Under the pieces are notes generated by a model that was not told where the DNA came from, made no database searches, and saw only the letters and a program-made list of their open reading frames with translations. 33,516 nt of DNA from IMG/VR virus record IMGVR_UViG_3300025300_000048, positions 1-33,516 of that record; one strand, 5' to 3'. Both the position numbers and the translations under genes were made by a program. This DNA is from a virus. Each line of letters begins with the position of its first letter. Positions within the stretch are counted from its first letter, which is position 1. Below, one piece after another: positions 12,796 through 23,344 of the stretch.

Positions 12796-12801
12796 GAAAA
12801 A

Positions 12802-12823
12802 CGCCCGGTATTGAAACCGGGCG
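12802..12823 (-). terminator. Rho-independent terminator of the leftward operon
   Basis: A perfect 8-bp stem (CGCCCGGT at 12802-12809 with ACCGGGCG at 12816-12823, loop of six). On the minus strand it is followed by TTTTTCTT. The plus strand lacks a T tract after the stem, so it works for leftward transcripts. It sits 8 bp after the last leftward micro-ORF and 7 bp from the end of the convergent lysis operon. Confidence 0.8.
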
Positions 12824-12830
12824 CTGGAAT

Positions 12831-12897: not shown

Positions 12898-13290
12898 TCA
12901 TTGCACCAGTTCCTTTAGCCTATTGAACCGTTCCGATACCAGCGGCGCGTGGTACTCTGAGTTGTCGGCGTGATGTGGATGGCGTTGGCGAAACACTTGC
13001 CAGGCATCGTGGGCCTGAAAATATATCTTCGCCGCCGCGGCGATCTGGCGCAGCTTTGGCACCTCTGTGTCAACATCTGCGACGATGGCGATGGTCCTGG
13101 CTCGGTGAGGCAACCGCGTAATATAGCCGCGCATTTCCAATGCGGTTACCAGCCGAGAGGCGCCACTCTTCGACGCCAACCCCATACCATTGAGAATATC
13201 CTCATAGCTTGGCGCGTTGCCATTGGCATCGATGTATCCATCGATAAACTCCAGGCACCGCCGCTGCTGCTTGGTCAGGCCCGCCCTCAT
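12898..13290 (-). CDS. LexA-like DNA-binding protein lacking the protease domain
   Basis: 130 residues. Residues 4-65 (LTKQQRRCLEFIDGYIDANG, SYEDILNGMGLASKSGASRL, MRGYITRLPHRARTI) match the winged helix of LexA repressors (LexA_DNA_bind). After it there is only a helical tail rich in His and Arg. The S24 autoprotease domain with its Ala-Gly cleavage site and Ser/Lys dyad is absent. It could be a repressor or co-regulator that is not cleaved in the SOS response. The start overlaps the recT stop by four bases, so it is coupled to the recombination genes. Confidence 0.85.
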   Translation of the reverse strand: MRAGLTKQQRRCLEFIDGYIDANGNAPSYEDILNGMGLASKSGASRLVTALEMRGYITRLPHRARTIAIVADVDTEVPKLRQIAAAAKIYFQAHDAWQVFRQRHPHHADNSEYHAPLVSERFNRLKELVQ

Positions 13291-14303
13291 TCCCCTGCCT
13301 CCTTCGCCTTGGCACTCAATTCTCCCGCCTCCTTCGCCTTCGCCGACAGCATGCGGATCAGCCGCCTGTAGTCCTTGGCAAGCTGTTCCGCCATCGCTGG
13401 AGCCTCATCCTTAATACGGGCGATGGTGTCGTTGTTTTTCTTTTTGAACGCGGCGATATCGTGCCGGCGAACAGTGAAAATGCATTCGCCATCGTCGGCG
13501 ATGCGATTGACCACGTCGGTGAACGTGGCGATCCACTCGGATACGGACCCACAGGCGTCGATCTCGCCGTCATTGGGCATAACCAACTCCCACGCCGGGG
13601 CATCGGGGTCCATTTCCTCGACAGGCGTCTCAGAGGACGCCTCAAGCGTTTGCGTATCTTCCGGCACCCCAGGGCCATCGGCCACCTCTGAAGCCTCTGT
13701 GGCCTCAACCTCGCTGGCCTTTTTTCCCGGTTTCGGCGCCGCAATGGCGTCGAGCGGGTTCACCGGCGGCGTGACATCCTTGATCGGATAGTCTTCTGCC
13801 TCATCTACACTGATGACGCCTTTGAGGGCGTCGGGGAACGCATCGCGCACCGCAAATCCCCTCGCCCGCATCGCCAGCATCCTTTTTGGATACTGCTTCC
13901 AGGGACCGCCCTTCCCCCACAGGTTGGCGCGTTTGGCATCACCGACAGAAAATGTCCGCGTGGTGACAACGTCTCGGTTTTTTACCACCCGCACAATCGT
14001 GCAAGTAGCCTCTTCCCCTTCGATGTTTTCTTGATGCCCGCCATATTCTGGGTGGCTGGTCACCAGCGCCATCATGGCATCGCCATATATGGCCGGCTTT
14101 CCATTGATGACGGCAATTCCCTGCAAGGCTTGCATCGGCGGCAAACCTATTTCGCTGCCCCATTGGATGGCGACAAGGATATCGCCGGGCTTTCCCTTAA
14201 AGTTTGCCGGCACCATCGATGACGACGCCAGTGTCTCGCTGAACTTGACGGCGCCTTCGAACGTGGTCGGCGTCAGCATGCCGGTGGTTGCTGGGATACC
14301 CAT
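13287..14303 (-). CDS. recT: RecT-family single-strand annealing protein
   Basis: 338 residues from ATG 14303, which shares its A with the stop of the exonuclease gene (TGATG) and has GGAGG 8 bp upstream; longer starts to 14426 lie inside that gene. The RecT signature is clear in residues 13-75: TFEGAVKFSETLASSSMVPA, PGDILVAIQWGSEIGLPPMQ, ALQGIAVINGKPAIYGDAMM, followed by WKQYPKRMLAMRARGFAVRD. The C-terminal third is acidic and low in complexity, then basic, and ends in a tandem ten-residue repeat (SAKAKEAGEL SAKAKEAGE). It would anneal ssDNA produced by the adjacent exonuclease, a Red/RecET-like pair for phage recombination. Confidence 0.9.
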   Translation of the reverse strand: MGIPATTGMLTPTTFEGAVKFSETLASSSMVPANFKGKPGDILVAIQWGSEIGLPPMQALQGIAVINGKPAIYGDAMMALVTSHPEYGGHQENIEGEEATCTIVRVVKNRDVVTTRTFSVGDAKRANLWGKGGPWKQYPKRMLAMRARGFAVRDAFPDALKGVISVDEAEDYPIKDVTPPVNPLDAIAAPKPGKKASEVEATEASEVADGPGVPEDTQTLEASSETPVEEMDPDAPAWELVMPNDGEIDACGSVSEWIATFTDVVNRIADDGECIFTVRRHDIAAFKKKNNDTIARIKDEAPAMAEQLAKDYRRLIRMLSAKAKEAGELSAKAKEAGE

Positions 14304-15250
14304 CACGCCACCTCCTTCACGGTTACCGTCTTGGAACGGACAGTCTTCGCCGCCTTGGCCGGCGTGGTCTTTTCCGGCTGCGCCTTCATGTTTCGCATCC
14401 CCCACTTGATCTCGTAGGCGCCGCACTTGGCGAGGCCGTGGTTGCCCATATAACTCTGGATCGCGAGGTTTGCGTCACCTATCACCTGTTCACACGTTTT
14501 GATCGCTTCCTTAGAAGTTACTATGGCCTTGGCGAAGGTCGCGCATTCTGCTTCAAGGATGATCGGCACCTCCTCATCTGCTTCCGGGTACAGCAGTAGC
14601 GCATCGCCGGGGTGGGCCCGTTCCAGATCGTACCATTCGCCCGTCGTGAGGCGCTGGTCGAAATCCAGCACCGCTTCCGAGATGGCGGCGACGGTGCCAG
14701 GGTGCGGCGCGAACAGGAATATCCGCATTTCGATGCCTTGATACAGGACGCATACCGCGGCCCACTTGAATCCAGAACACATCATCTGACCCTGCGCCTG
14801 GATCGGGCCGCGATGCAGCGCCGGCACGTCTTCCGGCCGCACCGAGGTGACCTTGTTTTCGATGCAACCGCAGCCGTCCAGGGTAATGATGTCGGCGCCG
14901 ACCACATAGATGCCGGCGTCGGGATCGGTGACGAACGTCACCGGTTTCTCGAACTCACCGACAGCGTCGAGCGATGCCTGGAGGGGGAGTTCCGGGTGGA
15001 TGTACGGCTCGGTGATCTCGGTCACCAGCCGGTCCACGCCGAGGCGTTCGCCGGCGATCTTGATGCAGACCGGCTCTAGTGTATTCCCCCAGCCTGTTGC
15101 CTCGTTGCCGGCCCAAGGTTCAAGGGTGCCGGCGATGGCATCCCTCGAATATTGAAGTTCCTCATTGCGGCTACTGTAGGGCGAATGCCCCAATAGAGCG
15201 GGCAGTCGTGAAACACTCATCTGTTTATCGTCCGTTACTTTTCCAACCAT
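14303..15250 (-). CDS. YqaJ-type viral exonuclease
   Basis: 315 residues, ATG 15250 with AGGAG 7 bp upstream. It has the lambda-exonuclease/YqaJ core: RLPALLGHSPYSSRNEEL at the N-terminus, GWGNTLEP (Glu59), PLQASLDAV (Asp95), CIENKV (Glu131, Lys133) and GPIQAQGQMMCSGFKWAAV with the usual glutamines. These give the metal-dependent 5'-3' dsDNA exonuclease that feeds RecT. The C-terminal 40 residues are basic. An out-of-frame ATG at 15258 would give only six codons (MKWLEK) overlapping the real start. Confidence 0.9.
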   Translation of the reverse strand: MVGKVTDDKQMSVSRLPALLGHSPYSSRNEELQYSRDAIAGTLEPWAGNEATGWGNTLEPVCIKIAGERLGVDRLVTEITEPYIHPELPLQASLDAVGEFEKPVTFVTDPDAGIYVVGADIITLDGCGCIENKVTSVRPEDVPALHRGPIQAQGQMMCSGFKWAAVCVLYQGIEMRIFLFAPHPGTVAAISEAVLDFDQRLTTGEWYDLERAHPGDALLLYPEADEEVPIILEAECATFAKAIVTSKEAIKTCEQVIGDANLAIQSYMGNHGLAKCGAYEIKWGMRNMKAQPEKTTPAKAAKTVRSKTVTVKEVA

Positions 15251-16158: not shown

Positions 16159-16161
16159 TCC

Positions 16162-16289
16162 CTATTCTCCGTTTTTATATGGTGGCGCTCGTTTGCGCGG
16201 CGCCGCCCTCATATGCCGTTTGGAACATTATCAGAACATACGGCCCGTGTAAATGCCGCAATGCACTGTTTTGGTTGTTCCCTAATCAT
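16162..16289 (-). other. 141-bp gap holding two chained micro-ORFs
   Basis: Between the recombinase stop (16301) and the 105-aa gene, the minus strand can read a 26-codon ORF (16289-16209, start after GACAGGA). It overlaps by ATGA a 16-codon basic ORF (16212-16162, MRAAPRKRAPPYKNGE), which ends 4 bp before the next ATG. The overlap pattern resembles translational coupling, but both are very short and could be leader sequence only. Confidence 0.25.
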
Positions 16290-16300
16290 TCCTGTCACCC

Positions 16301-17023
16301 CTACCCCTTCCGGTCTAAAATTGACTTGACCTGTTGCGGGTGCCAGTTGGCGCGGCCGGTCGAGGTCTTGATGCCGCGGGCCTTGAGGGCGGTGGCGATC
16401 TCGCGCAGGGTTTTCAAGCCAGCCGCTTGAATCTGTTCGATGATGGGCAAGGTATTTTCAGCGAACTGCTGGGCGATAGCCGATTGCGTGGCGCGTCCAT
16501 TGTGTCCCATATTGCGCAGCACGGCGCTGTCCTGCTGCCCGAGGCGGTCGATTTTCTTGCCGGCCTTGGTGACGCCCTTTTTCTTGAGCGCCGCCAGCGC
16601 CGCCTTGGTGCGCTCGGAAATTTGATCCCTCTCATATTCGGCCATCGCCGCCAGGATGTGCAGGGTCAGCCGGTTGGCATGCGGGTTGTCGGCTGCGACG
16701 AAGTCCACCTTGCTATCCATCATGTTGGTGATGAAGGCGAGGTTGCGTGAGAGCCGGTCCAGCTTGGCGACCACCAGCGTTGCCTTGGTCTTCTTGCAAA
16801 GCTCTATGGCGGCGTCGAGTTGCGGCCGGTCATTCTTCTTGCCGCTCTCGGTTTCAACGAACTCGCCGACCAGCTTCCAGTCGCCGCCGTTGAGGAACCG
16901 CTGCACGGTCTCCCGTTGGGCGTCGATGCCGAGGCCGGTGGCGCCCTGCCGCAAGGTGCTGACACGGTAATAGGCAACGTACTTGCCTGTGTGTTCGATG
17001 CCGCTGGCGTACTGTTCTGACAT
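16301..17023 (-). CDS. Serine recombinase (resolvase/invertase family)
   Basis: 240 residues. The N-terminal catalytic domain has YRVSTLRQ (nucleophile Ser22, Arg20), TLVVAKLDRLSRN (87-94) and AAMAEYERDQISERTKAALA, all hallmarks of small serine recombinases. The C-terminal part (LPIIEQIQAAGLKTLREIAT, ARGIKTSTGRANWHPQQVKS) is a helix-turn-helix DNA-binding region. It is far smaller than the large serine integrases, so it is more like a resolvase or invertase, though such proteins sometimes serve as phage integrases. ATG 17023 overlaps the upstream stop (TAATG) and has the shared ACGGAGAA motif. No paired attachment or inversion sites were recognised. Confidence 0.9.
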   Translation of the reverse strand: MSEQYASGIEHTGKYVAYYRVSTLRQGATGLGIDAQRETVQRFLNGGDWKLVGEFVETESGKKNDRPQLDAAIELCKKTKATLVVAKLDRLSRNLAFITNMMDSKVDFVAADNPHANRLTLHILAAMAEYERDQISERTKAALAALKKKGVTKAGKKIDRLGQQDSAVLRNMGHNGRATQSAIAQQFAENTLPIIEQIQAAGLKTLREIATALKARGIKTSTGRANWHPQQVKSILDRKG

Positions 17024-17488: not shown

Positions 17489-17695
17489 TTATGATGCTTG
17501 GTAACGATATTCGCCGGTTGAAACACGTTTTCCCCCTTGGAGTGCCTTGGTAATTTCCCAAGCCCGTAACACGACCAAGTGCTGACTAGCGATATGAGTT
17601 GCCAGTTCATCTGTAAGCGGCAAAGTGTCCAAGACTTGCCCTTTTAGTTCTTTATATTGGGGATGTTGTCTGCCGGCGGTTTTGATAATTGCCAT
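17489..17695 (-). CDS. First gene of leftward operon, 68 aa, unknown
   Basis: The reading frame extends to 17884, but the likely start is ATG 17695. It has ACGGAGAA 5 bp upstream and lies just downstream of the leftward promoter, whose predicted start site is near 17745; the longer version would begin upstream of that promoter. The 68-residue product begins MAIIKTAGRQHPQYKELKGQ and is a mixed-charge helical protein. No family recognised. Being the first gene under the early leftward promoter suggests an early regulatory or host-takeover role. Confidence 0.6.
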   Translation of the reverse strand: MAIIKTAGRQHPQYKELKGQVLDTLPLTDELATHIASQHLVVLRAWEITKALQGGKRVSTGEYRYQAS

Positions 17696-17724
17696 CTGTT
17701 TTCTCCGTTGTTTCTGCTTTAGTG

Positions 17725-17743
17725 ACCGGTTCGTTCCCGGTTG
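17725..17743. promoter_or_regulatory. Operator candidate (LexA-like half-sites / dyad) at the leftward start site
   Basis: Two overlapping patterns are visible: an inverted repeat ACCGG-N7-CCGGT (17725-17741) and a direct repeat GTTC-N7-GTTG (17729-17743). The latter is one base away from the GTTC-N7-GTTC box bound by LexA in several alphaproteobacteria. The site lies just downstream of the leftward -10 box and touches the rightward -35 box (17741-17746), so a bound protein would affect both promoters. The operon encodes a LexA-like DNA-binding protein at its far end. Confidence 0.4.
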
Positions 17744-17770
17744 ACGGTGTATATATAGCCGATGTATATC
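17741..17770 (+). promoter_or_regulatory. Rightward early promoter (sigma70-like)
   Basis: TTGACG at 17741-17746, 18-bp spacer, TATATC at 17765-17770, predicting a start near 17777 and a leader of about 23-41 bases before the ribbon-helix-helix gene. It occupies the same 30 bp as the leftward promoter in opposite orientation, so the two cannot be bound by RNA polymerase at once. Confidence 0.6.
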
Positions 17771-17781
17771 TTGCATGTCAA
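17752..17781 (-). promoter_or_regulatory. Leftward early promoter (sigma70-like)
   Basis: On the minus strand a perfect -35 TTGACA (17781-17776), 18-bp spacer and TATATA -10 (17757-17752), predicting a start near 17745. It drives the operon from 17695 down to the terminator at 12802. This is the best sigma70 match I noticed in the window. Confidence 0.75.
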
Positions 17782-17785
17782 CATG
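17774..17785. promoter_or_regulatory. Palindromic operator candidate
   Basis: CATGT-CA-ACATG, a perfect 12-bp dyad, covers the -35 box of the leftward promoter and the predicted start of the rightward transcript. It is a suitable site for the ribbon-helix-helix protein encoded immediately downstream, which would give autoregulation. Confidence 0.4.
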
Positions 17786-17799
17786 GCAGAGCAAGTTTT

Positions 17800-17997
17800 T
17801 TGAAAAAAAATACCACATTGAATAAAACCCCATATTTTCTGCGCCTTGAGCCGTCGTTAATTGAAGGCGCGCAGATGATTTCAAAGCGTGAAGGCGTGAC
17901 GGTGACCAGCATTGTCGAGGATGCGTTGACGGCGCACCTCAAGCATCGGGTCAAGGCGGTCATCAATCTGCCGCGGGATTGGCGGGGCGAAGAATGA
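17800..17997 (+). CDS. Ribbon-helix-helix regulator
   Basis: About 65 residues from TTG 17800, or 59 from TTG 17818; no good ATG precedes the domain, and the longer frame back to 17689 would cross the promoter. TPYFLRLEPSLIEGAQMISK followed by REGVTVTSIVEDALTAHL is a complete Arc/CopG-type ribbon-helix-helix, with a short basic C-terminal tail. Such proteins bind short palindromes as dimers or tetramers. It is the first gene of the rightward early operon, directly downstream of the divergent promoters, so it probably controls them in the manner of a Cro or Arc protein. The stop overlaps the rusA start. Confidence 0.7.
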   Translation: MKKNTTLNKTPYFLRLEPSLIEGAQMISKREGVTVTSIVEDALTAHLKHRVKAVINLPRDWRGEE

Positions 17998-18410
17998 AAC
18001 GCCATCCCCTCGCCGATTTCACCATCGACGGCCCGCCCGTTGCCAAGGGCCGGCCACGCTTTAGCCGCGGCCGCACCTACACGCCGGCGAAGACCGCCGC
18101 CGCCGAGGAACGCATCCGAAATTTGGTGGCGCTGGAGTTCCACCAAGACCCGACCACCAAGCCAATCAACATCATGCTGTCTTTCGGGATGGAAATTCCA
18201 AAGTCGTGGACGAAGGCAAAGAAAGAGGACGCCCGTCAGGGATGGTTGCCGCACGTCTCGACCCCGGATTTAGATAATCTTGTCAAATTGGTCACCGACG
18301 CGCTGAACGGCGTGGTCTACAAAGATGATGCCCAGATCGTGCGCCTCGACGCGGCCAAGCTGTACCTGCCGGTGCCGGCGACAATCATAACGGTCTTTCC
18401 ATATGACTAG
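17994..18410 (+). CDS. rusA: RusA-family Holliday junction resolvase
   Basis: 138 residues from ATG 17994 (ATGA overlap with the regulator stop). The RusA pattern is complete: PPVAKGRPRFSRGRTYTP at 14-31, then STPDLDNLVKLVTDALNG with Asp92 and Asp94, and VVYKDDAQIV with Asp111/Asp112, corresponding to the three essential aspartates of E. coli RusA. It cuts Holliday junctions or branched replication intermediates so that phage DNA can be resolved and packaged. It cooperates in principle with the RecT/exonuclease pair of the opposite operon. Confidence 0.95.
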   Translation: MKRHPLADFTIDGPPVAKGRPRFSRGRTYTPAKTAAAEERIRNLVALEFHQDPTTKPINIMLSFGMEIPKSWTKAKKEDARQGWLPHVSTPDLDNLVKLVTDALNGVVYKDDAQIVRLDAAKLYLPVPATIITVFPYD

Positions 18411-22478: not shown

Positions 22479-22552
22479 GGAGCCTCATCCAATTGCGAGG
22501 CCAATTTTCAGAACCCGCCTTTGGGCCAACCTAATTGCAGGACCAATCTGAC

Positions 22553-23344
22553 ATGCAAGTGATGAACATCATTTCACTAGGCGCGGGCGTGCAATCGTCA
22601 ACGATGGCACTGATGGCGGCGAAGGGGGAAATTACGCCTATGCCGGATGCGGCGATATTCGCGGATACGAAATGGGAGCCGACAGCGATTTACAGTCATT
22701 TAGATTGGTTGGAAACGCAACTGCCCTTTCCGGTTTACCGCGTTTCCAAGGGTGATATCCGCGCCGATTTATTGGCGGCAGTAAGCGGCGGCAGTAAGCG
22801 GTTCGCGAGCATCCCGTATTTTACGGAAAACGGCGGCATGGGGAGACGTCAATGCACAAAGGAATACAAAATTTACCCGATCCGCGACAAGGTTAAAGAA
22901 CTGCTGAACCATCCAGCCGGGAAGCGCATTCCCAAAGGTGCCGCGCAAATGTGGATCGGGATTTCAACCGATGAAGCACAGCGAATGAAACCGTCGAATA
23001 TTGGTTACATCGAAAATATATGGCCGCTAATTGACGCCGGTATATCGCGCCGGGACTGCGTCAAATGGTTCTCGGAGAACTACCCCGGCCGCGCGCTGGC
23101 TAAGAGCGCGTGTATTGGTTGCCCATACCATAATGACGCCATGTGGCGTGACATGAAAATGAACGACCCCGACAGCTTTGCTGACGCGGTGGACGCGGAC
23201 AACGGGATGCGGAACGGGATGCGGAACAAGGAATTTATGCATCGTAGCCTAAAGCCTCTCGGCGAAGTGGATTTCCGCAACCTAGAGGACAAAGGGCAGA
23301 TCAACCTATTCGGCAACGAATGCGCTGGGATTTGCGGCGTATGA
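22553..23344 (+). CDS. PAPS-reductase-like adenine nucleotide alpha hydrolase
   Basis: 263 residues from ATG 22553 (ATG 22562 also possible). The PP-loop is ISLGAGVQSSTMALMAA near the N-terminus, then IFADTKWEP. Five cysteines stand in telling contexts: QCTKEYKIYPI (Cys101), SACIGCPYHND (Cys187, Cys190) and NECAGICGV at the C-terminus (Cys257, Cys261). This family of phosphoadenosine phosphosulfate reductase-like proteins is common in phages and related to enzymes that activate substrates with ATP for sulfur or amide transfer. The cysteines could hold an iron-sulfur cluster. The substrate, perhaps a nucleotide or DNA base, is unknown. The stop overlaps the next start by ATGA. Confidence 0.75.
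   Translation: MQVMNIISLGAGVQSSTMALMAAKGEITPMPDAAIFADTKWEPTAIYSHLDWLETQLPFPVYRVSKGDIRADLLAAVSGGSKRFASIPYFTENGGMGRRQCTKEYKIYPIRDKVKELLNHPAGKRIPKGAAQMWIGISTDEAQRMKPSNIGYIENIWPLIDAGISRRDCVKWFSENYPGRALAKSACIGCPYHNDAMWRDMKMNDPDSFADAVDADNGMRNGMRNKEFMHRSLKPLGEVDFRNLEDKGQINLFGNECAGICGV

Follow-up and report, generated by a model that had tools for sequence, protein, structure and literature searches.

Overlapping divergent promoters as candidates for early control in a podovirus family

Two opposed sigma-70-type promoters, which are superimposed on one 41-bp footprint, almost certainly lie between the recombination and the replication genes of a podovirus-like virus, and the same geometry recurs in eight lineages including this one. 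The DNA analysed, hereafter termed the window, comprises 33,516 nt (positions 1-33,516 of the IMG/VR virus record IMGVR_UViG_3300025300_000048). Judged from its sequence, the best explanation, which we hold to be slightly better than evenly probable, is early control by polymerase competition combined with autoregulation by a ribbon-helix-helix (RHH) protein, which would time the transition between the two gene blocks or fix their ratio, while a LexA-like protein would act elsewhere.

Gene layout around the divergent gap

A family scan of the genes revealed a head-tail adaptor (phrog_332), an internal virion protein and a terminase, which characterise the window as podovirus-like. The divergent gap at 17696-17799 forms the boundary of a leftward recombination block and a rightward replication block. 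The leftward block is composed, in order, of a 68-aa gene (17489-17695, minus strand), a 130-aa gene, a small serine recombinase of the resolvase/invertase type (240 aa; 16301-17023, minus strand; family match), three small genes, a YqaJ/RecE-like exonuclease (14303-15250, minus strand; family match), a RecT-like annealing protein (13287-14309, minus strand, with the start used for alignment in a reading frame open to 14426) and a LexA-like gene (12898-13290, minus strand), 3' of which a terminator-like hairpin was located by sequence scan (12800-12825, minus strand). The leftward transcript had been described as ending with the LexA-like gene; the gene order does end there, and the longest gap of the block, 142 bp at 16159-16300, interrupts it. 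The 68-aa gene has no family match and is replaced by other genes in the relatives. Its slot is hypervariable in L008, L025, L132 and L158, where unrelated small genes, and in L158 the recombinase itself, are found; the L008 lineage retains the leader and ribosome-binding site of the first leftward gene despite the replaced gene.

The rightward block consists of the RHH gene (17800-17997, plus strand; 65 aa, TTG start at 17800), a RusA-like resolvase (17979-18410, plus strand; family match), a protein with nucleotide-metabolism and other phage matches, a methyltransferase and a primosomal protein. A PAPS-reductase-like gene was also noticed at 22535-23344. That the rightward transcript would begin with an RHH gene, as the preliminary description proposed, agrees with this order and with the RHH or RHH-like first gene of all eight lineages.

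The RHH protein of the window gave weak family matches only (DUF6364, E 1e-3; the Arc-like phrog_582, E 5e-3). Its monomer model contains helices at residues 18-31 and 35-46 and no strand, and Arc and CopG are its best folds, at weak E values of 0.2-0.4. Relatives match RHH families, that of L132 matching RHH_3 at 1.5e-9; among GenBank phages the protein had no match. The identity between the window and L008:3001-3183 breaks off sharply around residue 53. In L008 and L025, moreover, RusA is preceded by a DNA cytosine methyltransferase-like gene that is missing there from the window, and the two observations together make a recombination boundary likely.

The promoter pair in the window

The rightward promoter, TTGACG-18-TATATC, occupies 17741-17770 on the plus strand (-35 at 17741-17746, -10 at 17765-17770) and would initiate near 17777, while the leftward promoter, TTGACA-18-TATATA, occupies 17752-17781 on the minus strand (-35 at 17781-17776, -10 at 17757-17752) and would initiate near 17745. 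Both hexamer pairs can be read directly, opposed on the same 41 bp, just as originally described. The term face-to-face has to be given up: the predicted starts lie about 32 bp apart with the transcripts pointing outward, and the promoters are therefore divergent and overlapping, not convergent.

By the definition of a pair adopted here, the arrangement is unique in the window, with 0.01 expected per dinucleotide-shuffled window (200 shuffles); an equal pair arose in 1 of 5000 shuffled intergenic regions, and a plain mismatch score ranks the pair as the best site of the 33.5 kb. As this definition was chosen after the earlier claim had been seen, the relatives constitute the fairer test. Both -10 hexamers lack the final T, which is why the stock promoter scan lists neither promoter, and on these grounds it might be argued that one or both merely resemble promoters by chance; the shuffle tests, the whole-locus ranking and the GTCAA found in all eight lineages (see below) render such a coincidence scarcely credible. 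A 15-bp tandem repeat at 17745-17774 (CGGTGTATATATAGC / CGATGTATATCTTGC) spans both -10 boxes.

Conservation of the pair in relatives

Relatives were sought in viral contigs with the RHH, RusA, LexA-like, YqaJ-like and RecT-like proteins as queries, and seven further lineages with a control region were obtained, in which the RHH identity to the window falls to 36-45%. These are L008 (RHH 85%), L025 (RHH 57% over 47 residues, LexA-like protein 45%, recombinase 59%), L132 (RHH 41%), L158, L159 and L160 (RHH 36-45%), and L154, where it was the promoter scan itself that located the control region and where the first protein, RHH-like only, matched no Pfam family. An RHH or RHH-like gene directly follows the promoter pair in 8/8 lineages, most of which were themselves located through the RHH gene. 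Exact-pattern scans of the viral contigs returned six close relatives only, and MW202898, the reference phage with the nearest connector, encodes no detectable homologue of the control genes.

The eight-lineage counts leave out near-identical contigs (L005-L007 of the window, L009 and L010 of L008, L156 and L157 of L158), those that yielded no RHH gene or end before reaching one (L130, L131, L133, L134/L162, L155 and L135-L138), and L163-L174, which have no RHH match; L140, L141, L145 and L146 stand outside the control-region comparison. L011 and L012 were dropped, their RHH proteins lying in other gene contexts. Also left out were the more distant, AT-rich L139, L142, L143 and L144, in which an RHH-like first gene adjoins a longer and different divergent region, with loose promoter pairs nearby in L143 and L144 only; the RHH-first layout thus reaches beyond the overlapping promoters.

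The four hexamers were scored in the 110 nt upstream of each RHH start. For the window, L008, L025, L132, L154, L158, L159 and L160, in this order, the total mismatches amounted to 5, 5, 7, 5, 3, 6, 6 and 4, and the single-lineage shuffle p values to 0.002, 0.002, 0.10, 0.004, 0.001, 0.03, 0.07 and 0.001. Fisher combination over the six lineages that played no part in defining the pair (L025, L132, L154, L158, L159, L160) gave p 1.3e-7. When every position of the loci (9-33 kb) was scored, with longer stretches of the same contigs representing L008 (L111) and L132 (L161) and L110 representing L025, the stretch upstream of the RHH gene supplied the best overlapping divergent sigma-70 pair in all eight, uniquely in six and tied in two (four-way in L110, three-way in L158).

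The leftward promoter reads TTGAC[AG] with a -10 starting TAT in every lineage, and GTCAA of its -35 is invariant in 8/8. The rightward -35 varies from TTGACG (window and L008) through TTGACC (L154), TTGAAC (L132), TTCACC (L159) and TTCACA (L160) to the weak TTGTTG of L158 and L025 (in the latter TTGTTG or TTGTAT, depending on the scoring). TGn stands before the rightward -10 of L132, L154, L159 and L160, which we take as the mark of an extended -10. The arrangement is kept in distant relatives despite changed surroundings, so that RNA polymerase itself may have a share in the control.

Dyads, the TTCGTTC element and the question of lysogeny

The preliminary description had envisaged a genetic switch with two operators, set apart from lambda by the full overlap of its promoters; taken as a lambda-like switch, it would have the RHH and LexA-like proteins each bind one of two dyads. 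Both dyads are exact where they were placed, in the window as well as in its near-identical relatives: CATGT-CA-ACATG (17774-17785) covers the leftward -35, and ACCGG-N7-CCGGT (17725-17741, minus strand), which occurs once in the window in exact form, ends on the first T of the rightward -35. As a pair of operators they fared less well. The CATGT dyad is unremarkable alone (p 0.07 against shuffled flanks), is already broken by a single arm mismatch in the nearest sister lineage, L008, has one mismatch in L025 as well, and is lost in the other five lineages with three or four; dyads of any kind centred on the leftward -35 gave no signal over six lineages (p 0.96). It is thus probably not an operator.

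The ACCGG dyad is better read as a putative hairpin in the 5' leader of the leftward mRNA than as a protein operator. As RNA it would form a 5-bp hairpin starting at +5 of the predicted transcript, and in L008 the arms change compensatorily, from ACCGG/CCGGT to ACCCA/TGGGT, with two compensatory pair changes around the same TTCGTTC. Folding is modestly better than that of shuffles (z -1.3 and -1.9), and the hairpin occurs in two lineages only, L025, L154 and L158 having no such structure; an operator role was considered less likely, the arms compensating in L008 and vanishing further out. The spacer element TTCGTTC (17730-17736), which the leftward mRNA would carry as GAACGAA and which is separated from the rightward -35 by 2-4 nt, is exact in 4/8 lineages (window, L008, L154, L158) and not exact or absent in L025, L132, L159 and L160. 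As the hairpin is gone in L154 and L158, yet TTCGTTC is exact there, the spacer is more conserved than the arms. Elsewhere in the window, GATGTATAT has five matches with at most one mismatch.

Further evidence tells against lambda-like control. No CI-type repressor or large integrase was present among the window genes scanned, and scans of the genome collection revealed no identifiable prophage with the control module. A LexA-like relative was encoded in 0/84 candidate stretches of that collection; RecT relatives occurred in 17 genome contigs, and recombinase, YqaJ and RecT were combined only in L175 and L176, which are short MAG contigs. The recognition helix of the LexA-like protein, moreover, predicts a different target, GTTC-N7-GTTC. 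A lysogeny switch is neither needed nor supported here, and the two-dyad model is regarded as very unlikely.

The LexA-like protein and its candidate box

The 130-aa LexA-like protein (12898-13290) carries a LexA-type winged-helix DNA-binding domain in its N-terminal half (PF01726, E 2.9e-14, with a fold match to LexA) joined to a different C-terminal part: residues 77-129 model as two helices, and no peptidase family, including the self-cleaving S24 type, was matched. Its recognition helix, LASKSGASRLVTALE, is nearly alphaproteobacterial in comparison with LASKSGIHRLITALE of Sinorhizobium meliloti LexA, whose gene has GTTC-N7-GTTC upstream. This direct repeat is the one read by the alphaproteobacterial LexA class, according to PMC3323433 and PMC12907096.

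The only exact copy in the window, GTTCTGATAATGTTC at 16223-16237 (minus strand), falls within the 142-bp interruption of the leftward block. Approximately one exact copy would be expected by chance in 33 kb, so that the evidence resides in the placement of the box rather than in its presence. The L008 lineage keeps the box in the same position; it is missing from the L025 contig, where the recognition helix differs, and no exact copy was found near the corresponding place in L110, L132, L154 or L158. The stock promoter scan scored no leftward promoter at the box. We consider 16223-16237 a likely LexA-type box, which would be the target of the LexA-like protein and a separate leftward control point. 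A host-like recognition helix without a peptidase domain, together with a single exact GTTC box, was also noted as the possible mark of an uncleavable SOS repressor.

Alternatively, the LexA-like protein could act at the promoter pair itself through TTCGTTC. With its preceding G, this element contains GTTC and overlaps +5 to +15 of the leftward transcript, where the window reads GTTC-N7-GTTG; the four lineages with an exact copy have a LexA-like gene, whereas L159 and L160, in which no such gene was detected, lack the element in their control regions. However, CAGTTCGTTC is common to L154 and L158 despite different helices (ETKSAAHRLV and KSRAQVSNVV), and identical copies beside different helices argue against this protein as the reader; L132 and L025 possess the gene without an exact element, and GTTCGTTC exhibits no 11-bp period. 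We therefore hold action through TTCGTTC to be most improbable, and the probable route by which the LexA-like protein affects the distal recombination genes is the box at 16223-16237.

Possible polymerase exclusion and comparison with known systems

In the favoured explanation, the two promoters on one 41-bp footprint would constitute the early control element of the podovirus family. Because they share this footprint, a polymerase bound for one would exclude the other, and mutual exclusion at the pair is plausible. The rightward promoter would drive the RHH gene, RusA, the methyltransferase and the primosome genes, and the leftward one the small variable gene, the serine recombinase and the YqaJ/RecT genes. 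As regulator, the RHH protein is the likeliest candidate and would be made first, being encoded about 23 nt past the predicted start; on accumulating, it may bind within the core, shut its own promoter and release the leftward one, although the comparison of promoter regions found no RHH operator. Such a circuit would time the passage between replication and recombination genes, or hold the two at a constant ratio, and would not amount to a heritable lysogeny switch.

RHH regulators at divergent phage promoters are familiar from immI of phage P22, where Pmnt and Pant are served by Mnt and Arc; that system differs from the window in having two RHH proteins and in controlling an antirepressor. 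The design itself is known, and the favoured explanation would be a variant of it; plasmid pLS20 likewise has an overlapping divergent pair. In this plasmid, as described in PMC4207663, Pc and Pr lie on one footprint, as the window promoters do, and a regulator gene stands under one of them; they admit one polymerase at a time, as the window pair would. The plasmid demonstrates that overlapping promoters can act as a switch, provided that they are of unequal strength and are affected differentially by the regulator. Unlike the window, it has a known regulator, Rco, promoters that are far from equal and a DNA loop that joins two operators (PMC4207663); in the window no operator or second site was found and the regulator candidate is the RHH protein. 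Lambda PR/PRM, to which the same source draws a comparison, likewise combines divergent phage promoters with a regulator, but there the CI sites, which overlap PR, are situated upstream of the PRM core, and the footprint is not common to both; lambda also has a lysogenic state.

The bidirectional promoters of Escherichia coli share divergent starts on one polymerase site with the window, and their steric exclusion would have its counterpart there, but they use one symmetric -10, with starts mostly 10, 18 or 23 bp apart, and little promoter competition is reported unless activity is high (PMC12825309). They lend weight to a simpler account, in which the two promoters are both active early, compete little at basal levels and overlap to save space: in 5/5 tested E. 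coli cases basal transcription was too low for competition (PMC12825309), and the comparison here revealed no conserved operator apart from the promoter boxes and TTCGTTC. The window, by contrast, has two separate and complete promoters, each with its own -35 and -10 and not one shared -10, and their predicted starts are about 32 bp apart; the overlap persists though the intergenic sequence has diverged, and the neighbouring gene is RHH or RHH-like throughout. A compact bidirectional promoter with no dedicated switch is accordingly viewed as unlikely, though it deserves serious weight. The open-access literature, outside which most subscription papers lie, yielded no phage family that uses the design between RHH-led replication and recombination blocks.

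Significance

A more far-reaching picture, which we offer as a doubtful speculation, is that of a family without a lysogeny programme, in which polymerase exclusion tuned by an RHH autoregulator hands over between replication and recombination, and an uncleavable LexA-domain protein of host-like specificity keeps the recombination genes, perhaps together with SOS genes of the host, under its control by way of GTTC-N7-GTTC. The comparison of relatives separates the constrained parts of the region (the promoter boxes and TTCGTTC) from operator-looking dyads that are probably not operators. The eight diverged and naturally varied overlapping promoters provide a set for measuring polymerase exclusion, and the LexA-like protein, which has host-type recognition residues but lacks the cleavage domain, can be tested as a candidate SOS repressor made by the virus and insensitive to damage.
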